A stretch of DNA of 40,372 bases, taken from the NCBI RefSeq assembly GCF_035474595.1, contig NZ_DATIND010000160.1, positions 1 to 40,372 on the forward strand. Reading direction: 5' to 3'. The position numbers and the translations under genes were made by a program. This document shows, piece after piece, positions 2,993 through 16,642 of the stretch. The notes beneath the pieces were generated by a model. The model searched no databases. It had not been told where the DNA came from and saw nothing but the letters and a program-made list of their open reading frames with translations. The stretch comes from Longimicrobium sp. (lineage in GTDB: Bacteria > Gemmatimonadota > Gemmatimonadetes > Longimicrobiales > Longimicrobiaceae). Numbering within the stretch: the first letter of the stretch is position 1; each line of letters begins with the position of its first letter.

Positions 2993-4048
2993 CTACGGCT
3001 TCGGCTGCAGCATCTGCTCGATGCGCTCCAGCCGCGCGCGCAGCTCGGCGTTCTCGGCGCGGAGCGCGGCGTTGTCGCGCTCCACGGCCTGGATGCGGGC
3101 GTCCTGCGTGGTGGTGCGGGCGTCCAGCGCCTTGATGGCGGAGAGCGCCACGCCGCCCTCGTCGATCGGGGCGATGGTGACGTTGTCGCGCCCCAGCCCG
3201 AACACCGCGTGGAAATCCTGCGCGGTGGGGCCGATGTGGCGGACCCCGGCGTCGTCCACGCGGTAGCTCCAGGTGCGCACCGGCAGCGCGCGCAGGCGGA
3301 CGAGCACGTCCTCGCCCGACACGTCCTCGAACAGGTGCTTGCGGCGCACGTCGGAGACGTCGTGCCACACGCCGTCGGTGCCGAGGTAGGCGCCGGTGCT
3401 GGTGCTGATCACCGCGTTCGACTGCCCCCAGTTGCTGGCGACGCTGCCGCTCTGGATGGTGACGCCGGTGGACAGGTTGGAGGAAGTGAAGATCCGGAAG
3501 CCGCCGGAGACGCGCCAGTTGGCCGAGTGGTTCACCCCGGCGCGCAGCGTGTCGACCGAAGAGCGGTCGGAGAACACGAACGAGCCCTGCCGCGCGTTGG
3601 TGTGCGCGTGGTAGCCCAGCGCCACCGAGGCCGCGCCCGAGGCGGTGTTGTCCTCGCCCGCCGCGAAGCTGCTGACCTGGGCGGCGGTGGAGCGAAGCCC
3701 GAATGCCGTGGCGTTGTCGGCGCTGGCGCGCACGTCCTGGCCCATGGCCACGGAGTAGTTGCCGATGTTGGCGGCGTCCCACTGCGTGCCGTTGATGCCG
3801 CCGGCGCGGAACGCACCCTTGCGCGGATACCACATCGCGCGCGTGCCCGAGCCCTCGGCCGGGATCCCCGTGCCGTTGATGTCGCCGTCGAAGGTGCCGC
3901 CCATGAGGACGCCGGCGTCCACGTTCACGCGGAACAGCCCCTGCCCGCCGCTGCTCACCGCGAACGCCGAGTCCGGTGTCTGCGCCCGCGCCGGGGCGGC
4001 AAGGGCCAGCGCCGCCAGCGCCACGCCCGCAAGAATCCTGGTGTTCAT
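2993..4048 (-). CDS. Secreted YadA-head / peptidase S74 (auto-cleaving chaperone) protein, paralogue 1
   Basis: About 351 residues. A Sec signal peptide ('LAALALAAPARAQ') is followed by an N-terminal domain shared with the 5253-6464 protein ('VSSGGQGLFRVNVDAG', 'MWYPRKGAFRAG'). Next come YadA-type trimeric head repeats ('NYSVAMGQDVRASA', 'ASVALGYHAHTNA'). A peptidase S74 domain starts at Ser232 in 'SDVRRK'; Ser232 and Lys237 have the Ser-x4-Lys spacing of the self-cleaving dyad known from phage endosialidase tail spikes. The C-terminus is a coiled coil ('RDNAALRAENAELRARLERIEQML'). Family knowledge: S74 assists trimerisation and then cleaves itself off. The start MNTRIL at 4048 has GGAG 5 bases upstream; an ATG at 4051 is the alternative. 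It lies about 30 bases downstream of the lipoprotein gene, probably in the same transcript. Confidence 0.8.
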   Translation of the reverse strand: MNTRILAGVALAALALAAPARAQTPDSAFAVSSGGQGLFRVNVDAGVLMGGTFDGDINGTGIPAEGSGTRAMWYPRKGAFRAGGINGTQWDAANIGNYSVAMGQDVRASADNATAFGLRSTAAQVSSFAAGEDNTASGAASVALGYHAHTNARQGSFVFSDRSSVDTLRAGVNHSANWRVSGGFRIFTSSNLSTGVTIQSGSVASNWGQSNAVISTSTGAYLGTDGVWHDVSDVRRKHLFEDVSGEDVLVRLRALPVRTWSYRVDDAGVRHIGPTAQDFHAVFGLGRDNVTIAPIDEGGVALSAIKALDARTTTQDARIQAVERDNAALRAENAELRARLERIEQMLQPKP

Positions 4049-4077
4049 CATCGCTCCGGCTGGAAGGGGAGTGGGGG

Positions 4078-5100
4078 TCACGGGAGCTGGATCGACATCA
4101 CCTGGTCCTTCACCGACAGCGAGCCCGTCACCGACACGGCGCCGGTGGCCTTCACGGTGCCCTGCAGCTGCGTGCTCCCGGACACCTGCAGCGCGTCCAC
4201 GTTGCCGCGCAGCAGCGCGCCGGTGCCGCTCATCCACACCGTGCCGCCGCTGATGGTGCCCACCGCGTCGACGTTGGCGCGGGCGCGCAGGGTGAAGCCC
4301 TTGAGCCCCAGCGAGCTGGCCGCGCCCACGCGCAGATAGCCCACGTCGGCGTCGGCGGCCAGCACCGGCTGCGTGTGGCTGGCCAGCAGCGAGTCGGGGG
4401 GGATGGCCACGACGCTCGACGAGTCGGGCACCACGCCGTCCTGCCAGTTGCCGGGGGTGCTCCACACCGAGTCCACCGCGCCGGTCCACACCTTGTCGAC
4501 CAGCGGATCGTTCTCGTTGGGCAGCGGGGTGGAGACGTAGACGGTGAACTCGAACGAAACCACGGTAGACGGGACGTTGAACTGCCACGTCTTCGCCCGC
4601 GACAGCTGGTACGGCGACAGGATCTCGCCGTAGCTGAAGTAGGTCTGGTTCGACGCCAGGAAGGTCCCGTCGGTGCCGTCGGGGTTGGCCACCGTCACGC
4701 TGCCGGTGCCCGAGGTGACCGTGGGCCCGGTCTGGAAGAAGACCTTCACCCCGGAAACCGTAAAGCCGTCGGGCGTGCCCATGGGGCGGTCGGCCAGGTT
4801 CTGCACCACCACGTTGCTCGACAGGATCTCGGTTCCCGCGTCCCAGGTGGTGCCGGAGCTGGAGAGCTTCACGTACACGTCCTGCTTGCCGATGATGCGG
4901 TCGCCGCGCGGGCCGGCGGGCTTCACGCTGGTGCACGACATCGTCTGCGCGGGCACGTTCACCGAGCAGGTCACCTGTCCCACGGTGCCGGCGGGGAGCG
5001 CGGGCGCGGCGGCGGTGGGAAGGAGGCGGTCGGTGCACGCCGCAAGCAGCACGAGCGCCGCACCGCATGCGGTGCGTTGTATCAGTTGCCGATGGGACAT
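4078..5100 (-). CDS. Predicted lipoprotein with repetitive beta-rich C-terminus
   Basis: 340 residues with a lipoprotein signal: 'ACGAALVLLAAC' puts the lipidated Cys at residue 22, followed by T-D (Asp at +3). The mature part is rich in Ser, Thr, Val and Gly. Residues 170-215 resemble an extracellular beta-sandwich ('SFEFTVYVSTPLPNEND'). The 'VWTGAVDSVWSTPGNWQDGVVPD' stretch resembles the W-x-N-x-x-N-W opening of autotransporter-associated beta-strand repeats. The tail has a beta-helix-like 'VSGSTQLQGTVKATGAVSVTGSL' pattern. I do not recognise a named family. It lies between two S74/YadA paralogues on the same strand, which suggests a shared cell-surface structure. A good promoter lies 51 bases upstream of its start. 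Confidence 0.75.
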   Translation of the reverse strand: MSHRQLIQRTACGAALVLLAACTDRLLPTAAAPALPAGTVGQVTCSVNVPAQTMSCTSVKPAGPRGDRIIGKQDVYVKLSSSGTTWDAGTEILSSNVVVQNLADRPMGTPDGFTVSGVKVFFQTGPTVTSGTGSVTVANPDGTDGTFLASNQTYFSYGEILSPYQLSRAKTWQFNVPSTVVSFEFTVYVSTPLPNENDPLVDKVWTGAVDSVWSTPGNWQDGVVPDSSSVVAIPPDSLLASHTQPVLAADADVGYLRVGAASSLGLKGFTLRARANVDAVGTISGGTVWMSGTGALLRGNVDALQVSGSTQLQGTVKATGAVSVTGSLSVKDQVMSIQLP

Positions 5101-5150
5101 GGCCTGGAGGAGTGGGGCGAGGGTGGAGCGGCTTCCCGTTGGGATGCCAC

Positions 5151-5179
5151 AGTATACGACGATTCGTGCTTCCGGACAA
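5151..5179 (-). promoter_or_regulatory. Sigma70-like promoter for the 5100-2993 transcript
   Basis: On the minus strand a TTGTCC -35 box (5174-5179) is followed by a 17-base spacer and a TATACT -10 box (5151-5156). Transcription would start near 5144, about 44 bases before the lipoprotein ATG at 5100. It would drive the lipoprotein and the S74 protein downstream. Confidence 0.6.
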
Positions 5180-5252
5180 GCTTTCTCCGCGTGGACGGCC
5201 GCACGGGGGAGCGTAGCAGCCGAGCCGGGGCCGGAGCCCGCGCGGACGCGCG

Positions 5253-6464
5253 TCAGGGCTTCGGGGCGGCGGGCGGCGGGCCGGCCACCAGCGACTCCAG
5301 CCGCCGCAGCCGCGCCTCGAGGTCGCTCACGCGGCCGCGCAGCTCGGCGTTCTCGGCGGTCAGCGTGCTCACCTCGGCGCGCAGCTGGTCGGTGCGCGCG
5401 GCCACCGCCTGCACGCCGGCCAGGTTCACGCCGTCGATGTCGACGGAGTTGATCATCCGGTCGCTCTCGCCCAGGCCGAAGGCGGCGAACAGGTCCTGCG
5501 CCATGGGGCCCATGTGGCGGATGGCGCGGTCCTGGGTCCGGTAGTTCCAGGTGCTCACCGGCACGCCGCGCAGGCGGGCCAGCAGCTCCTCGCCGCTCAC
5601 CGCCCGGAAGTTCTCCTTGCGGTTGCGGTCCGACACCGCGCTCCAGCCGCTGCCGCCGGCAGCCAGCTCCACGCCCGCGGTCAGCCCCTGGTTGGTGTAG
5701 AACTTCACGCCGCCGCAGCCGCGCGCCACGAACTGGTTGTTGGCGGTGGGATACACCGAGTCCGACGAGAAGGAGGCACAGCCGTCGCCCAGCACGATCG
5801 AGCCCTGCCGGTTGGCGGTGCGGGCGTTCTTGCCGATGGCTACCGAGAACTGCCCGCTGGCGCTGTTCTGCAGCCCGATGGCCACGCCGAAGTTGCCGTT
5901 GGCGATGCTGGGGCCCAGGGTGATGGCCGCCAGCCCGCCCGCGATGGAGCTGGGGCCCATGGCCAGCGCGTCGTCGTTGGTGGCCTGCGCGCCGCTGCCG
6001 ATGGCCACGGCGCCCACCGCGCTGGCGGTGCCGTTGAAGGCGAAGGCTCGGTCGGCGCTGGCCGTGCCGTTGTTCCCCAGCGCCACGCTCTCGTCACCGC
6101 TGGCGGTGGTGGCCAGGTTGGCCGCGAAGGAGTTGCTGCCGCTGGCGCGCGTGTTCTCGCCGAAGGCGGCGGAGCCCGCGCCGATGCTGGCCAGGTCCCA
6201 GTAGGTGGCGCCGAAGCTCTCCACCTTGCCGGCGCGGAAGGCCCACAGCGCCGGGAACCACATCATGCGCACGCCCGCGCCGGTGGCGGGGATGTTCCCG
6301 CTTCCGGCGGTGCCGTTGGCCACCAGGCCGGCGTCCTGGTTCACGCGGAAGAGCTGGGTGCCGCCGCTCGACACGTACAGCGCGCTGTCGGCCTGGGCAT
6401 GCGCCAGGGTCGACGCGCCGAGCACGAGCGCGGCGGTGAGGAGCGTGGAGCGGTAGCGGGGCAT
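5253..6464 (-). CDS. Secreted YadA-head / peptidase S74 (auto-cleaving chaperone) protein, paralogue 2
   Basis: 403 residues. A Sec signal peptide ('LLTAALVLGASTLAHA') is followed by the same N-terminal domain as the 2993-4048 protein ('YVSSGGTQLFRVNQDAG', 'MMWFPALWAFRAG'). About eight YadA/Hia-type head repeats follow, of the form S-x-A-x-G-x-x-x-x-A-S-G ('ESVALGNNGTASADRAFAFN', 'GAVAIGSGAQATNDDALAMG'). The S74 domain begins at Ser278 in 'SDRNRK', with Ser278 and Lys283 as the predicted cleavage dyad. It contains the conserved 'STWNYRTQDRAIRHMGPMAQD'-like core (first 20 residues shared) and ends in a coiled coil. The start ATG at 6464 has AGGA just upstream. No YadA C-terminal membrane anchor is present, so how the head stays on the cell is unclear. 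Public annotation would probably read 'tail fiber domain-containing protein', but no phage genes surround it. Confidence 0.82.
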   Translation of the reverse strand: MPRYRSTLLTAALVLGASTLAHAQADSALYVSSGGTQLFRVNQDAGLVANGTAGSGNIPATGAGVRMMWFPALWAFRAGKVESFGATYWDLASIGAGSAAFGENTRASGSNSFAANLATTASGDESVALGNNGTASADRAFAFNGTASAVGAVAIGSGAQATNDDALAMGPSSIAGGLAAITLGPSIANGNFGVAIGLQNSASGQFSVAIGKNARTANRQGSIVLGDGCASFSSDSVYPTANNQFVARGCGGVKFYTNQGLTAGVELAAGGSGWSAVSDRNRKENFRAVSGEELLARLRGVPVSTWNYRTQDRAIRHMGPMAQDLFAAFGLGESDRMINSVDIDGVNLAGVQAVAARTDQLRAEVSTLTAENAELRGRVSDLEARLRRLESLVAGPPPAAPKP

Positions 6465-8080: not shown

Positions 8081-10560
<2,480 letters not shown>

Positions 10561-10564
10561 GCAG

Positions 10565-11470
10565 ATGAGCGACGGGGGATTCGCGATCTTGCAGGCGGTG
10601 CAGGAGCTCTCCGGGCCCGCGGCGTCTCCGCGGGCGGACGTCGGACGGCTCTTCCGGCTGGGCGGCGAGTTCTTCCTGATCGCCGGGCCGTGCGTGCTGG
10701 AGAGCGACGCGCTGAACGTGTGCGTGGCCGAGGCGCTGGCGCGGATGGCGGACGACCTGGACCTCCCCATCCTGTTCAAGGCCAGCTTCGACAAGGCCAA
10801 CCGCTCGTCTCCCGGCTCGCCGCGCGGGCCGGGGATCGACGAGGGGCTGGCGAAGCTGGAGAAGGTGCGGGCGCAGACGGGATTGCCGCTCGTCACCGAC
10901 GTGCATCTCCCCGAGCAGTGCGCCGCGGTGGCCGAGGTCGTCGACGTGCTGCAGATCCCCGCCTTCCTCTGCCGCCAGACCGACCTGCTGGTGGCCGCGG
11001 GCGCCACGGGGAAGCCGGTGAACGTGAAAAAGGGGCAGTGGATGGGGCCGGCCGAGATGCGGGGCGCGGCGGCCAAGGTGCGCGGCGCCGGCGCCCCCGG
11101 CGTGGCGGTGACGGAGCGCGGCACCTTCTTCGGCTACGGCAACCTGGTGGTCGACATGCGCTCGTTCGCGCTGATGCGCGAGGCGTGCGAGGCGCCGGCG
11201 GTGTTCGACGGCACGCATTCCGTCCAGCGCCCCGGCGAGGGCGCGGGCGTCAGCGGCGGCGAGCCGCGCCACATCCCGGCGCTGGTGCGCGCGGCGGTGG
11301 CGGCGGGCGCGGACGCGCTCTTCTTGGAGACGCATCCCGACCCGGCGAAGGGGCTCTCCGACACGACCAACATGCTCCCGCTCGCCCGGCTGAAGCCGCT
11401 GCTGGAGCAGGTGCTGGAGATCCGCGCCGCGTCGCGGACCCTGGACTGGGAGGCGGCGCCCCGTGGCTGA
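10565..11470 (+). CDS. kdsA: 3-deoxy-8-phosphooctulonate (Kdo-8-P) synthase
   Basis: 301 residues. It condenses arabinose-5-phosphate with phosphoenolpyruvate to Kdo-8-phosphate. Conserved segments are 'AGPCVLES', 'LFKASFDKANRSS', 'GPGIDEGLAKLEKV', 'TDVHLPEQ', 'DVLQIPAFLCRQTDLL', 'VNVKKGQWMGP', 'VTERGTFFGYGNLVVDMRS', 'FDGTHSVQ' and 'FLETHPDPAKGLSD'. Cys43 in 'AGPC' marks the metal-dependent class; the metal-independent E. coli-type enzyme has Asn there. The protein has about 30 extra N-terminal residues before the barrel. The start ATG 10565 is 4 bases after the pyrG stop, and the 3' end overlaps kdsC by 8 bases. Confidence 0.97.
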   Translation: MSDGGFAILQAVQELSGPAASPRADVGRLFRLGGEFFLIAGPCVLESDALNVCVAEALARMADDLDLPILFKASFDKANRSSPGSPRGPGIDEGLAKLEKVRAQTGLPLVTDVHLPEQCAAVAEVVDVLQIPAFLCRQTDLLVAAGATGKPVNVKKGQWMGPAEMRGAAAKVRGAGAPGVAVTERGTFFGYGNLVVDMRSFALMREACEAPAVFDGTHSVQRPGEGAGVSGGEPRHIPALVRAAVAAGADALFLETHPDPAKGLSDTTNMLPLARLKPLLEQVLEIRAASRTLDWEAAPRG

Positions 11471-12041
11471 GCGCATCGACGCCGGGCTGGCGAAGCGGAT
11501 CCGCCTGGTGGTGCTGGACGTGGACGGGGTGATGACCGATGGCGGCATCTACCTGGGTGCGACGGAAAGCGGCGAGCCGGTGGAGCTGAAGCGCTTCGAC
11601 ATCCAGGACGGGCTGGGGATCCGGCTGATGAAGGAGGCCGGGATCCACGTCTCCATCGTCACCGGACGCGAGAGCCACGCGGTGCGCATCCGCGCCGAGG
11701 AGCTGGAGATCGACGAGGTGCACCAGGACCGCACCGCGGCCAAGCTCGGGACGGTGACGGCGATGCTGGAGCGGCTGGGGATCGGGTGGGAGGAGACGGC
11801 CTTCATCGGCGACGACCTTCCCGACCTCTCCATCCTCCGCCGCGTCGGGCTCCCGGCCGTCGTCGGCAACGCGACCTCGGACGCGCGGGCGAGCGCCGTC
11901 TGGGCCGCGGAGAAGCACGGCGGGCGCGGCGCGGTGCGCGAGTTCGCCGAGGCGCTGCTGACCGCCCGCGGCGAGTGGGCCGGGCGCGTGGAGGCTTACG
12001 TGCGCGAGCGCGAGGCCGGCTCGGAAAGGCCGGGGGGATGA
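11463..12041 (+). CDS. kdsC: Kdo-8-phosphate phosphatase (HAD family)
   Basis: 192 residues. It removes phosphate from Kdo-8-P to release Kdo. It is a HAD hydrolase of the capless C0 type: motif I is 'LDVDGVMTDG', with nucleophile Asp19 and acid/base Asp21. 'FDIQDGLGIRLMKEAGI' and 'VTGRES' (motif II) follow. 'FIGDDLPDLSIL' is motif IV, and 'NATSDARASAVWAAEKHGGRGAVREF' is the tail over the active site. The tetrameric KdsC/YrbI type is the clear match. GTG start at 11463, overlapping kdsA by 8 bases; the stop overlaps kdsD (ATGA). Confidence 0.96.
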   Translation: MAERIDAGLAKRIRLVVLDVDGVMTDGGIYLGATESGEPVELKRFDIQDGLGIRLMKEAGIHVSIVTGRESHAVRIRAEELEIDEVHQDRTAAKLGTVTAMLERLGIGWEETAFIGDDLPDLSILRRVGLPAVVGNATSDARASAVWAAEKHGGRGAVREFAEALLTARGEWAGRVEAYVREREAGSERPGG

Positions 12042-13039
12042 TGCTGGAGACGCTCGCCGCCGCCACGCCGGGGCTGTCGCTGGCCGAAACGCTGGAGCGC
12101 GCCCGCCGCGTGATCCGCCAGGAGGCGCAGGCCGTGGCCGCGCTCGAGGCCCGCATCGGCAGCGACTTCGCGGGCGCGGTGGAAGCCATCCTGGAAGACG
12201 GCGGCCGCGTGATCGTCTCCGGCATCGGCAAGAGCGGCATCGTCGCCCGGAAGATCGCGGCGACGCTGACCTCGACGGGGACACCGGCCACCTTCCTCCA
12301 CCCCGTGGAGGCGCTGCACGGCGACCTGGGGATCGTGGAGGCGGGCGACGTGGCCATCCTGCTCAGCAAGAGCGGCGAGAGCGAGGAGCTGCGCGGCCTC
12401 GTCGAATACCTCGGCCGGATGGGGGTGCGGCTGGTGGCGCTCACCGGGCAAATGGATTCGTCGCTGGCGCGGCAGAGCGAGTTCGTGCTGGACTGCTCGG
12501 TGGCCGAGGAGGCCTGCCCGCACGACCTGGCGCCCACCTCGTCCACCACCGCCGCGCTGGCGATGGGAGACGCGCTGGCGGTGGCCCTCCTGCTGCGCCG
12601 CGGCTTCGGACGCGACGACTTCGCGCGGCTGCACCCGGGCGGCGCGCTGGGCCGGCGCCTGATCCTGCGCGTGGCCGACGTGATGGTGGCGGAGGAGCTG
12701 CCGCTCCTCGCCCCGGACGCGCCGATGCGCGAGTGCGTGATGCTGCTCGCCGAGCGCCGCGGCACCGTCGCCATCGTGGATGGCGACCGGAAGCTCCTGG
12801 GCGTGGTGACCAGCGGCGACCTGACGCGGCTGATGGAGCGCGAGGAACACTTTTTTGCAATCTCCGTATCGGAGATCATGTCCGCCAATCCGCGCACCGC
12901 CGGGCCCGACCAGCTGGCCGCCGCCGCGGTGGGGGTGATGGAGCGGCACGGGGTGATGGCGCTCCCGGTGCTGAACGAGGAACGGCGCGTGGTGGGGATG
13001 GTGCACCTGCACGACCTGATGCGCGCCGGCGCGGTATGA
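12038..13039 (+). CDS. kdsD: Arabinose-5-phosphate isomerase
   Basis: 333 residues. It converts ribulose-5-phosphate to arabinose-5-phosphate, the first step of Kdo synthesis. The N-terminal SIS domain has 'VSGIGKSGIVARKIAATLTS', 'HPVEALHGDLGIV', 'LLSKSGESEEL' and 'LAPTSSTTAALAMGDALAV'. 'FARLHPGGALGRRL' links to a pair of CBS domains ('VADVMV' to 'VVTSGDLTRLM', and 'VSEIMSANPRT' to 'VGMVHLHDLMR'). This is the KdsD/KpsF layout. The start ATG 12038 follows a GGGGGG run and overlaps the kdsC stop by 4 bases. The 3' end overlaps lptC (ATGA). Confidence 0.96.
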   Translation: MMLETLAAATPGLSLAETLERARRVIRQEAQAVAALEARIGSDFAGAVEAILEDGGRVIVSGIGKSGIVARKIAATLTSTGTPATFLHPVEALHGDLGIVEAGDVAILLSKSGESEELRGLVEYLGRMGVRLVALTGQMDSSLARQSEFVLDCSVAEEACPHDLAPTSSTTAALAMGDALAVALLLRRGFGRDDFARLHPGGALGRRLILRVADVMVAEELPLLAPDAPMRECVMLLAERRGTVAIVDGDRKLLGVVTSGDLTRLMEREEHFFAISVSEIMSANPRTAGPDQLAAAAVGVMERHGVMALPVLNEERRVVGMVHLHDLMRAGAV

Positions 13040-13620
13040 ACCGGAAGACGATGAAATCTGTGACGATCCGCCCGATGGGGCTCACCTGGGTGCCGGTGCT
13101 CGGCCTTGCCCTCCTTGCCGCGTGCGGCGTGGAGCCGGCGGGCCCGGCCATCGCCGCCGACGCCAACAGCAACCAGGTGACCATCGGGATGAACCTGAAG
13201 ATCAGCGAGGCGGGCCGCCTGAAGGCCGACCTCTTCGCCGACACGGCGGTCACCCCCGAGGGCGAGACGCGCTCGCAGCTGAAGAAGGTGCGGCTCACCT
13301 TTTACGAGCCGGGGCGCCAGCCCAGCCGGCTGACCTCGAAGACGGGGGAGTACGACCAGACCTCGGGGATGATGACGGCGCGCGGCAACGTGGTCCTCAT
13401 CACCCAGGGCGACAAGGGGATGCGCACCATCAAGAGCGAGGAGCTGCACTGGGACCAGGGCGGCGACCGCGTGTGGAGCGAGAAATCCACCACCATCGTG
13501 GAGAACGGGCAGACGCTCATCTCCGACGGCTTCACCTCGAACTCGGCCTTCACCAACGTGCAGGGGAAGAACGCGGTGGTGCAGGGCGTGAAGGTCGGCA
13601 GCGGGGGGATCACCTTCTGA
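13036..13620 (+). CDS. lptC: LPS export periplasmic protein LptC-like
   Basis: 194 residues. Residues 17-35 are hydrophobic and end 'LLAACG', a lipobox with Cys at about residue 31, so it may be a lipoprotein rather than the usual single-helix membrane protein. The rest has the beta-jellyroll pattern of LptC/YrbK: 'LKADLFADTAV', 'KKVRLTFYEPG', 'SRLTSKTGEYDQTSGMMTARGNVVL', 'IKSEELHWDQGGDRVWSEKSTTIVENGQTLISDGF'. Family role: a bridge component that takes LPS from LptBFG and hands it to LptA. Its place between kdsD and the lptA-like gene matches the classic order. The start overlaps kdsD by 4 bases; the stop overlaps the next start (TGATG). Confidence 0.9.
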   Translation: MNRKTMKSVTIRPMGLTWVPVLGLALLAACGVEPAGPAIAADANSNQVTIGMNLKISEAGRLKADLFADTAVTPEGETRSQLKKVRLTFYEPGRQPSRLTSKTGEYDQTSGMMTARGNVVLITQGDKGMRTIKSEELHWDQGGDRVWSEKSTTIVENGQTLISDGFTSNSAFTNVQGKNAVVQGVKVGSGGITF

Positions 13621-15317
13621 TGCGCCGCATCCTCCTCGCCCTCGCCCTCTTCGCCGTGCCGTCCGCCGGCCGTGCGGCCGCGCAGAACACCTGCGAGCTG
13701 GTTTCCCAGCGCGGCAACTGGACGGCGATCGGCGACCCGCGCAACCGCGTGATCAGCGCGCAGGGGCCGCTGCTGGTGCGCTGCACCAACGGCGAGGAGC
13801 TGCGCGCCGACAGCGCGGTGATCTACTCCGCGCAGAACGAGGTGCAGCTCTACCGCCAGGTGGACTACCAGGACCCGGGGCGCTCGCTGACCTCGGACTA
13901 CGCGACCTACAACTCGCAGACGGGGCGGCTGTACGCCACCGGCAGCGTGGTCTTCACCGACAAGCAGAAGGGCTCCACCCTGCGCGGCCCCGAGCTGGAG
14001 TACTTCCGCGCCATGGCGGGGCGCCCCGAGGCGCAGTCCACCGCCACGCAGCGCCCGCACGTGACCGTCGTCCCCAAGAGCAACGGCTCGGCGAACCGCC
14101 GCAACCCCATGGAGATCGACGCCGACCGCGTGACCTCCGTCGGCGAGCGGTACATGACGGCCACCGGCAACGTCGTCATCAACGACAACGGCACCCGGTC
14201 GACCGCGGAAGAGGCGTACTACGACCAGGTGGCCGACCACGTGGAGCTGCGGCGGCAGGCGAAGGTCGACAACGAGAAGTACCACCTCTCGGGCGACCTG
14301 ATCACCACCGACCTGCAGAACGGCTCGGTCTCGCGCGTGGTGGCGCAGACCAACGCGCGGCTGGTGAGCGAGCGGCTGACGGTGGACGGGCCGCTGCTGC
14401 GCATGTTCTTCGAGCGCGACCTGCTGCAGCGGATGACCAGCGGGCAGGTGCCGGGAAGCACCACGCCGGGGCGCTCCACCGCCGTCTCCAAGGGCTTCCG
14501 CATGGAGGCCGACTCGATCGAGGCCCTGCTTCCCGACCAGCGGCTGCGGCAGGTAAACGCCGTCGGCAAGGCGCGCGGCGAGAGCTGGGACACCATCGCC
14601 GTCCGCAGCGTGGTCGTCGATTCCGGCGCGGCGGCGGGGCGGACCGCATCCGTTCCAACGGTGCCCCGGTCGATGACGGAGCCGCCGACCGAGCTGGACC
14701 AGAAGGACGTGCTGACGGCCGACACCATCGTCGCCTTCTTCCGCAGCGACTCCGCGCGCGCGGACAGCGCGTCGCGCCCCGCCCGCGGCGACAGCGTGCG
14801 GCTCGCGGGACGTCCGGCGCGTCCCGCGACGGCGCAGGGAGACACGGCGAAGACGGAGATCGAGCGGCTGCTGGCCATCGGCGACGCGCACTCGCTCTAC
14901 CGCATGCGCGACGACTCGGCGAAGGCGGGACAGAAGAAGCCGGGATTGAACTACCTGATCGGCGACCGCATCGACCTGACCTTCAAGGATGGCGAGGTGG
15001 ACGTGGCGCACGTGCGCGGATTGAAGCAGGGCGTGTACCTGGATCCCGACACCCGCACCGCGCAGAACGACACCTCGGCGGCGGGGCGGGCCGCCCGCGC
15101 GAACGGGCAGACGACCGCGCGCCCCGGCACCGTGACCGGCGCGACGCGGGCGACGACGGGGACCACGGGGACCATGCCGGCGCCGTCGAACACGCCGCCG
15201 CGGTCGGGGAGCCCGCCGGTGAACCGTCCCCCCGCGTCCAATCCACCCGCGACTCCGGCGCCTTCGCGGGACTCGCCGAGCGCTCCGTTGCAGCCAGCGG
15301 GAGGACGCAAGCCTTGA
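13620..15317 (+). CDS. lptA: OstA/LptA-like LPS transport protein with long low-complexity tail
   Basis: 565 residues, about three times the usual LptA length. A Sec signal peptide (ending 'GRAAAQ') precedes repeated OstA-type beta segments: 'GPLLVRCTNGEELRADSAVI', 'SLTSDYATYNSQTGRLYATG', 'MEIDADRVTSVGERYMTATG', 'RSTAEEAYYDQVADHVELRR'. From about residue 385 the sequence becomes rich in Ser, Arg, Ala and Asp. After one more OstA-like strand set ('NYLIGDRIDLTFKDGEVDVA') it ends in about 85 residues of Pro/Thr/Gly/Ala low-complexity sequence. Neighbours (lptC before, lptB after) and the OstA fold support a periplasmic bridge role. The extra length may span a wider periplasm or combine LptA with LptD-like N-terminal repeats. 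Confidence 0.82.
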   Translation: MRRILLALALFAVPSAGRAAAQNTCELVSQRGNWTAIGDPRNRVISAQGPLLVRCTNGEELRADSAVIYSAQNEVQLYRQVDYQDPGRSLTSDYATYNSQTGRLYATGSVVFTDKQKGSTLRGPELEYFRAMAGRPEAQSTATQRPHVTVVPKSNGSANRRNPMEIDADRVTSVGERYMTATGNVVINDNGTRSTAEEAYYDQVADHVELRRQAKVDNEKYHLSGDLITTDLQNGSVSRVVAQTNARLVSERLTVDGPLLRMFFERDLLQRMTSGQVPGSTTPGRSTAVSKGFRMEADSIEALLPDQRLRQVNAVGKARGESWDTIAVRSVVVDSGAAAGRTASVPTVPRSMTEPPTELDQKDVLTADTIVAFFRSDSARADSASRPARGDSVRLAGRPARPATAQGDTAKTEIERLLAIGDAHSLYRMRDDSAKAGQKKPGLNYLIGDRIDLTFKDGEVDVAHVRGLKQGVYLDPDTRTAQNDTSAAGRAARANGQTTARPGTVTGATRATTGTTGTMPAPSNTPPRSGSPPVNRPPASNPPATPAPSRDSPSAPLQPAGGRKP

Positions 15318-16642
15318 CGGAGCCCCGGCTGGAGCGAATCGTCAGCGCCACCGGCGCGGGCGGGCTCTCGGCGCTCATGGCGCTGCGGGCGCTGGCCGCC
15401 GCCGACGAGGGCGCGCACCCCGTGGACCGCGCCCGCTGGCTGACCGGCGTGCGCGAGGAGTACCACCGCTGGTACGGCGGCGACGGGCAGGCGCCGGGGA
15501 ACTTCGCCTCGCCCGAGACGGTGCGGTACCTGGACGAGCAGGTGACCGGGCAGCTGGCCGCCGCCGGGGTGGTGGAGTTCCTGGCCGAAGCCGAGGGCGA
15601 GCCGGTTTCGCCCGACGGCGCGGGAACGTGGCAGGCCGTGCGGCTCTCGCCGTGGGCGCTGGCCGAGGTGCAGGCCGGGCGCGAGCGGGCGCTGCAGCAC
15701 ATGGACGCGAGGATACGGGCCATTCTGCACGACACACACGGAAGCGGCCACGAGGGCGGCGAATCCGCCGCCGCGGTCGCCGACTTCGACGGGGAGGCGG
15801 GCGGCGTCGCGCTGGCGCCGGAGGACGAGGCGCTGCTGCACCCGCAGCGCCGCCAGTCGATGATCGTTCCCGGCGGGCTCACGCTGGCGGCCAAGGGGCT
15901 GGTGAAGACCTACCGCGGCCGCCGCGTGGTGAACGACGTGGACGTGCACGTCCGCCAGGGCGAGATCGTGGGGCTGCTGGGGCCCAACGGGGCGGGGAAG
16001 ACCACCAGCTTCTACATGATCGTGGGGCTCATCCGCCCCGACCGCGGCAAGGTGTTCATCGGCCCGCGCGAGCTGACCGGCGTGCCCATGTACAAGCGGG
16101 CGCGCGCGGGGATCGGGTACCTGGCGCAGGAGCCCTCCATCTTCCGCCGGCTGTCGGTGGAGGAGAACGTGATGGCCATCCTGCAGATGATGCCCCTCTC
16201 CCGCGCCGAGCGGAAGCGGCGGCTGGAGGAATTGCTGGACGAGCTGGGGATCAAGCATCTCCGCAAGACCAAGGCGTACGCGCTCTCCGGCGGCGAGCGG
16301 CGGCGGCTGGAGATCACCCGCGCGCTGGTCAGCCAGCCGCGCTTCATGCTGCTGGACGAGCCCTTCGCCGGCGTGGACCCCATCGCCGTGCACGACATCC
16401 AGCAGATCGTGAGCGACCTGCGCCGCCGCGGGATCGGGGTGCTGATCTCCGACCACAACGTGGAGCAGACGCTCGACATCGTGGACCGCGCCTACATCAT
16501 GTACGAGGGCCGTGTGCGGGTGAGCGGCACGGTCAGCGAGCTGGTCTGGAACGACGAAGTGGCCGAGATCTACCTGGGTCCCACGCTGACCGCCCGGATG
16601 CGCGAGCGGTACGACCACCCTGAATCGGAAGACGCGGTATGA
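15314..16642 (+). CDS. lptB: LPS export ABC ATPase LptB with an extra N-terminal domain
   Basis: 442 residues against about 240 for ordinary LptB. Residues 195-435 are a clear LptB: Walker A 'GPNGAGKTTSFYMIVGL' with Lys229, 'GIGYLAQEPSIFRRLSVEEN', signature 'LSGGERRRLEITRAL', Walker B 'FMLLDEPFAGVDPIAV' and switch His in 'LISDHNVEQTLDIVDRAYIM'. Residues 1-180 are a separate helical domain. It contains a winged-helix-like stretch ('VRYLDEQVTGQLAAAGVVEF') and an acidic linker, and I do not recognise it. The TTG start at 15314 overlaps the upstream stop. An internal ATG at 15860 would give a normal-sized LptB but has no ribosome site, so a fusion is preferred. The 3' end overlaps rpoN by 4 bases. 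Confidence 0.92.
   Translation: MTEPRLERIVSATGAGGLSALMALRALAAADEGAHPVDRARWLTGVREEYHRWYGGDGQAPGNFASPETVRYLDEQVTGQLAAAGVVEFLAEAEGEPVSPDGAGTWQAVRLSPWALAEVQAGRERALQHMDARIRAILHDTHGSGHEGGESAAAVADFDGEAGGVALAPEDEALLHPQRRQSMIVPGGLTLAAKGLVKTYRGRRVVNDVDVHVRQGEIVGLLGPNGAGKTTSFYMIVGLIRPDRGKVFIGPRELTGVPMYKRARAGIGYLAQEPSIFRRLSVEENVMAILQMMPLSRAERKRRLEELLDELGIKHLRKTKAYALSGGERRRLEITRALVSQPRFMLLDEPFAGVDPIAVHDIQQIVSDLRRRGIGVLISDHNVEQTLDIVDRAYIMYEGRVRVSGTVSELVWNDEVAEIYLGPTLTARMRERYDHPESEDAV

Follow-up and report, generated by a model that had tools for sequence, protein, structure and literature searches.

Results

Two YadA-head/S74 fibre genes on either side of a lipoprotein gene

The window analysed here is a stretch of 40,372 nucleotides from Longimicrobium sp. 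(Gemmatimonadota; contig NZ_DATIND010000160.1), a soil bacterium. At 2993-6464 it contains three genes, all on the minus strand, that encode the predicted secreted fibre proteins S74A (5253-6464, 403 residues) and S74B (2993-4051, 352 residues) and, between them, a lipoprotein to which we refer as the partner (4078-5100, 340 residues) and whose paralogues and relatives we also examined. A first-pass annotation of this DNA had proposed a pair of S74/YadA-head proteins around a lipoprotein, and we found both Pfam families above their cut-offs in both proteins: Peptidase_S74 (PF13884) scored 39.9 bits in S74A and 37.8 bits in S74B (gathering cut-off 22), and YadA_head (PF05658) 49.7 and 29.4 bits (cut-off 25). 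Both proteins start with a Sec signal that, by inspection, ends after Ala23.

In S74A, an N-terminal domain (Ndom; 6132-6389), defined by a hidden Markov model (HMM) and conserved in all fibres of the family, is followed by a YadA-head beta-roll (approximately residues 97-226; 5787-6176), as judged from PF05658, the structural model and VIA-align, and by a predicted self-cleaved chaperone part (residues 278-403; 5256-5633). S74B is built alike, with an N-terminal domain at 3713-3973 (HMM) and a predicted self-cleaved chaperone part comprising residues 233-352 (2996-3355; Pfam and paralogue comparison).

The S74 profile match starts exactly at Ser278 in S74A and at Ser233 in S74B, the first residue in each case of a Ser-x4-Lys dyad: Ser278/Lys283 (codons 5631-5633 and 5616-5618) and Ser233/Lys238 (codons 3353-3355 and 3338-3340). 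The latter had been numbered Ser232/Lys237 before, counting from the second Met, and both dyads are intact as had been claimed. The corresponding SDxxxK motif reads SDRNRK and SDVRRK in the two window fibres. The dyad cannot be put down to chance, as its Ser and Lys are invariant in the 7 paralogues of the same genome, which has 7 S74 genes across four contigs, and in a wider set of 47 proteins (Gemmatimonadota, Bacteroidota, Acidobacteriota, Myxococcota, Chloroflexota and others).

The AlphaFold2 monomer of S74A (alignment of 47 sequences, mean predicted local distance difference test (pLDDT) 85.6) shows the N-terminal domain, a YadA-type beta-roll and the S74 core, followed by a long helix towards the C-terminus (residues 340-393), in line with the C-terminal coiled coil predicted earlier. 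Its top structural matches are YadA-type heads, with VIA-align Z scores of 18-20 (CbpF 19.6, BpaC 18.2, and YadA), and Foldseek retrieved the BpaC head with E 3.1e-6; the MyRF ICA domain was matched with a probability of 1.00, at an E of only 0.025. The expected lack of an outer-membrane anchor was borne out, as no YadA_anchor was found in S74A, in S74B or anywhere in the genome by a search whose E. coli control gave a match. Consequently, a classical type Vc autotransporter was rejected: the YadA-head repeats are there, but the YadA anchor barrel is absent from the proteins and the genome.

S74A is about 60 % identical to fibres of Dyadobacter and Siphonobacter, as against 38-48 % to the paralogues of its own genome, and clusters with Bacteroidota in the tree. 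Because of this closer relationship and tree grouping, the sequences suggest horizontal transfer.

The C-terminal domain of the lipoprotein tracks S74 fibre genes

The partner owes its label to a lipobox, L19-A-A-C22, with Thr at +2 (5035-5046), a pattern common to most of the related proteins described below; those with a lipobox have T, S, A, R or V at +2. It consists of a signal and beta-sandwich N-terminal domain (LIPN; 4507-5100) and a C-terminal beta-solenoid of 140 residues, which we call NW-beta (4081-4500). The full-length protein matched nothing in Pfam, NCBIfam or PHROGs, and NW-beta belongs to no Pfam family. Among 28 NW-beta sequences, W205, W219, P245, G286, G292, G299 and G326 are invariant, and the domain is C-terminal in 28/29 listed proteins. 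Its profile also matches residues 888-981 of RemA (8gl6; E 1.8e-7).

The two domains behave differently. LIPN occurs in about 100 copies in the 21 genomes of the family, most of which do not lie near S74 genes and carry different C-termini, and only the C-terminal domain tracks S74; we therefore rejected the whole lipoprotein as the S74-linked unit. LIPN itself is a large unnamed family, whose fusions include beta-propeller, Ig-like, dockerin-like and peptidase-like C-termini.

NW-beta is present in 28 copies in the same 21 genomes, 26 of which are directly followed on the same strand by a complete S74 fibre gene (24 by PF13884 and two more by an S74 profile of our own). In a further case (G011:C145:78920), the contig end cuts off the downstream gene within the fibre N-domain, and the sole copy without a fibre gene (G017:C9) has a weak score and is the only listed copy that is not C-terminal. 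The first-pass annotation would have been contradicted by relatives in which S74 genes never lie near the lipoprotein; the opposite was found. In the Longimicrobium genome itself, each of the four NW-beta copies immediately precedes an S74 gene. Identity among the copies of a genome is just 28-35 %, and we estimate the chance of an S74 gene within 2 kb downstream of a random site at ~5e-4 (~53 S74 genes in 107 Mb). The pairing extends to Roseisolibacter (L035), from another family of the phylum, and no named locus outside Gemmatimonadota contained NW-beta.

Two further observations concern these loci. A radical S-adenosylmethionine (SAM) gene lies directly upstream of the NW-beta lipoprotein gene, on the same strand, in four of them (L016:7541-8575, minus strand; L103, L107 and L116), and this enzyme may modify the partner or the fibre. 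The partner in L124/L084 has two dockerin-like repeats (DVNGDGRVTAADA...) and lacks a clear lipobox; its anchoring may therefore differ.

Partner and fibre N-domain co-vary

In 27 NW-beta/fibre pairs, NW-beta distances correlated more strongly with those of the fibre N-domain (r 0.64) than with those of the S74 domain (r 0.51), with partial correlations of 0.49 and 0.21, respectively. When partners were shuffled within genomes, r fell to 0.04 +/- 0.08, and 0/5000 shuffles reached the observed 0.64. Since these shuffles destroy the correlation, the distances indicate that cognate pairs have stayed together, and the co-variation suggests a contact between NW-beta and the N-domain.

S74 fibres are paired with T9SS-sorted proteins in Bacteroidota

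A first set of 21 Bacteroidota loci, fetched by similarity to the window fibres, contained a protein with a C-terminal sorting domain (CTD) of the type IX secretion system (T9SS) in the S74 cluster in 16 cases, and three Dyadobacter loci have an S74 - partner - S74 layout like that of the window. The sorting domain of the partners submitted to Pfam and/or NCBIfam was confirmed as type A, that of L057 falling below the Pfam cut-off. Type A proteins attach to the surface through anionic lipopolysaccharide (A-LPS; PMC9143113), and the Bacteroidota partner is therefore expected outside the cell. By inspection, several of these partners start with a solenoid-like stretch.

A second, largely separate set of 34 loci was chosen by PF13884 in the genomes behind ten first-set loci, and 16 of them had a CTD neighbour. 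CTD proteins made up 17/42 co-directional neighbours versus 8/166 other genes (p 2.6e-8), a value that overstates the case because a few first-set loci may be repeated, the profile was built from first-set partners, and the related genomes are not independent. A search of the Longimicrobium genome for SprA came back empty, but its control gave no match either.

Some Bacteroidota S74 proteins, namely those of L026, L028, L029 (the S74 gene two upstream of the match) and L030 (the upstream S74), end in a hydrophobic helix and arginines after the coiled coil, e.g. WMGFAGFGLLALVLGAGLMMARRR. Such ends would fit a chaperone that remains in the inner membrane while cleavage frees the fibre, a behaviour that would resemble that of MYRF. 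Moreover, a Dyadobacter genome has a tandem array of six S74 genes (L186; G238:C11:398000-414000).

The cluster lies at a conserved chromosomal site

All three window genes have close orthologues standing together in genome G011 (identities of 79 % for S74A, 67 % for the lipoprotein and 74 % for S74B) and in G007, from another genus (75, 59 and 73 %). Both loci occupy the same chromosomal place, with PyrG on one side and outer-membrane protein (OMP)-like and GATase genes on the other, and the gene order is S74A - lipoprotein - S74 - S74B in G011 and lipoprotein - S74A - S74B in G007. The locus is old.

In the window, 26 nt separate the lipoprotein stop from the S74B start, and a sigma-70-like promoter candidate identified purely by consensus match (TTGTCC-17-TATACT, 5151-5179, minus strand; 1 seen versus 0.1 expected from shuffles) is located 51 nt upstream of the lipoprotein gene. 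Given this promoter candidate and the short gap, the sequence suggests that the lipoprotein and S74B form a two-gene unit, with S74A separate upstream.

The flanks are housekeeping, with GATase and CopD followed at 8081-16639 by genes for 3-deoxy-D-manno-octulosonate (KDO) metabolism and lipopolysaccharide (LPS) transport (KdsB, PyrG, KdsA, KdsC/D-like, LptC/OstA-like and other Lpt genes, and an ATP-binding cassette (ABC) protein). These KDO and LPS-transport genes are consistent with an LPS-bearing outer membrane. As stated in the first-pass annotation, no phage-like genes were found among the neighbours.

Discussion

Considering these results, we propose that the cluster makes short, homotrimeric, self-trimmed surface fibres together with a cell-surface holder for them, a reading that we put at slightly better than even (a probability of about 0.52). 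S74A and S74B would each be exported by Sec and would trimerise through the C-terminal coiled coil and the S74 domain. Each trimer would then cut itself just before Ser278 (S74A) or Ser233 (S74B), discarding a chaperone of 126 or 120 residues and leaving a mature fibre of about 254 or 209 residues that consists of the N-domain and the YadA-type head. Across the outer membrane, by a route for which we note that the genome encodes two secretins, the fibre would meet the lipoprotein, lipid-anchored and probably on the outer membrane. The NW-beta solenoid would grip the fibre by its N-terminal domain, and the freshly exposed C-terminal tip would point outwards.

Cleavage of the window fibres is likely by analogy, because MyRF, endosialidase and Bd3182 of Bdellovibrio bacteriovorus all cleave with an equivalent Ser/Lys motif: S587/K592 of MyRF and S911/K916 of endosialidase, spaced as in the window dyad, are required for cleavage, MyRF cutting only as a trimer (PMC8326128), and Bd3182, which has the SDxxxK motif, cleaves at Ser782 (PMC10769870). 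As for the partner, it probably keeps the fibre on the cell, via the N-domain, since the partners in both phyla own a means of staying there and the fibres, whose C-terminus is expected to be cut off, show none.

The idea that the lipoprotein tethers the fibre, already put forward in the first-pass annotation, thus gains from the partner linkage and from the T9SS-sorted partner of Bacteroidota; it needs correction in one respect, the lipid. Most partners have a lipobox and a few have none that is recognisable, for example L035, with a plain Sec signal, and L124; judged from the sequences, the conserved feature of the partners is therefore the NW-beta domain and not the lipid anchor. Besides these exceptions, several findings weigh against our proposal. 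The lipoprotein model is weak (pLDDT 72.5, 5 sequences). Orphan fibre genes without an NW-beta partner exist (C91 (L019), L127, L128 and L131). The Myxococcota and Acidobacteriota loci inspected showed no lipoprotein partner, and a crude scan of other phyla for any general partner of this kind, in which gene calling overlooked many open reading frames, returned none. Finally, the mirror-tree signal could be explained by the co-inheritance of adjacent genes alone.

Such co-inheritance would also underlie a reading in which the fibres and the NW-beta proteins are separate adhesins, co-expressed and neighbouring by descent, that make no contact. The domain may simply be adhesive, as NW-like stretches are repeated in very long proteins elsewhere in the phylum and also occur in RemA. 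Nevertheless, the S74-linked NW-beta subfamily hardly ever occurs without a fibre gene despite its divergence within genomes, where the pairing is strict, and we regard separate adhesins as rather improbable. In the main alternative, the lipoprotein would act in the periplasm as an assembly factor, in the way that SadB serves SadA, helping three fibre chains to meet and fold and taking no part in the finished fibre. The gene arrangement resembles sadBA, with a lipoprotein gene directly upstream of a trimeric (here inferred) adhesin gene, at 26 nt as compared with 44 bp in sadBA (PMC3953254), and the LIPN model aligns weakly with SadB (Z 6.0 over 107 residues). However, common sandwiches score around Z 6 as well, the SadB match is tied with unrelated ones, and the structure search with the lipoprotein model mostly probed its N-domain, whereas the domain conserved among partners is the C-terminal solenoid. 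Furthermore, SadB is kept in the inner membrane by Asp at +2, a position occupied here by Thr, Ser or Ala in almost all cases (Thr in the window lipoprotein), and a chaperone is already supplied by S74. A partner anchored at the surface, by a lipid in one phylum and by T9SS sorting, with an expected extracellular location, in the other, supports a tether over a SadB-like periplasmic chaperone, which we consider unlikely.

The S74 genes could also be phage tail fibres, domesticated or left as remnants, or they could belong to a phage-like particle. The earliest known S74 proteins are phage spikes, and in PHROGs both the S74 and the YadA-head stretches hit families of tail fibres (e.g. phrog_1980, E 3.8e-12). 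Against this stand the Sec signals, the housekeeping neighbourhood without phage genes, the chromosomal site conserved between pyrG and the GATase gene in two genera, the spread over many bacterial phyla and the finding that no phage record covers 80 % of S74B. We therefore rejected a phage origin, which appears very improbable. The first-pass annotation also needs correction in that S74 fibres were already known from bacterial chromosomes, in the mosaic adhesive trimer (MAT) superfamily of B. bacteriovorus, described in 2024 (PMC10769870).

Tethered, self-trimmed fibres in the window would give the gene pairing a wider meaning, as it names a concrete candidate holder of the fibre N-domain in two phyla and would add to SadBA another trimeric adhesin that has a lipoprotein dedicated to it. 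YadA-head/S74 fibres are found in many environmental genomes, and the pairing could account for how they remain attached to the cell when they have no autotransporter barrel. More tentatively, and with rather less confidence than we place in the window cluster itself, we envisage a widespread and so far unrecognised class of two-part trimeric fibres of reversed polarity, which have no membrane anchor, are finished by S74 self-cleavage and are bound by their N-terminus to a dedicated, surface-anchored solenoid partner. Anchoring would have been invented separately, by lipidation in Gemmatimonadota and through the T9SS in Bacteroidota, and the partner would supply the missing element that has been proposed to hold MAT-type fibres at the surface.

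Bacterial S74 fibres that cleave themselves (MAT) and a trimeric adhesin with a neighbouring lipoprotein (SadBA) are each already known, and no report of S74 and lipoprotein pairs was found in the literature searched. Nor did that literature describe the combination of the two, with its strict linkage of a specific solenoid domain and its parallel in a second phylum.

The closest known system is the S74 subfamily of MAT proteins, which, like the window fibres, are chromosomal and carry a signal peptide and a C-terminal S74 domain with SDxxxK. Both have a conserved N-domain after the signal, a likeness of layout. MAT fibres are about 900-1000 residues long and their tips are triple beta-helices or lectin-like, whereas the window fibres are short and show a YadA-head roll in the monomer model. 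The MAT N-domain is expected to be held at the surface, and no candidate partner has been named (PMC10769870); in the window, a partner gene is linked to the fibres. In the SadBA operon of Salmonella, the lipoprotein gene lies directly upstream of the trimeric adhesin gene (PMC3953254), adjoining it as in the window. Yet SadA, an autotransporter, has a barrel anchor of its own and no described S74, unlike the anchorless S74 fibres studied here, and SadB has Asp at +2, in contrast to the Thr of the window lipoprotein, in which the linked domain is the C-terminal solenoid. Type Vc autotransporters (YadA, BpaC, UspA1) have YadA-head repeats and fold in common with the window fibres, but their C-terminal YadA anchor has no counterpart in these or in the genome, and the polarity proposed for the window fibres would be the reverse of theirs. 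The endosialidase and T5 tail-fibre chaperones and the MyRF ICA domain (3GW6, 4UW8, 7DC3) share the Ser-x4-Lys S74 domain followed by a helical coiled coil, on substrates unlike the Sec-exported YadA-head roll of the window. Lastly, the gliding adhesin RemA of Flavobacterium johnsoniae (8GL6) shares the start of NW-beta, WTG..W..NW..P, but is a T9SS cargo of 1436 residues, whereas the window has a single C-terminal NW-beta copy on a lipoprotein beside S74 fibres.

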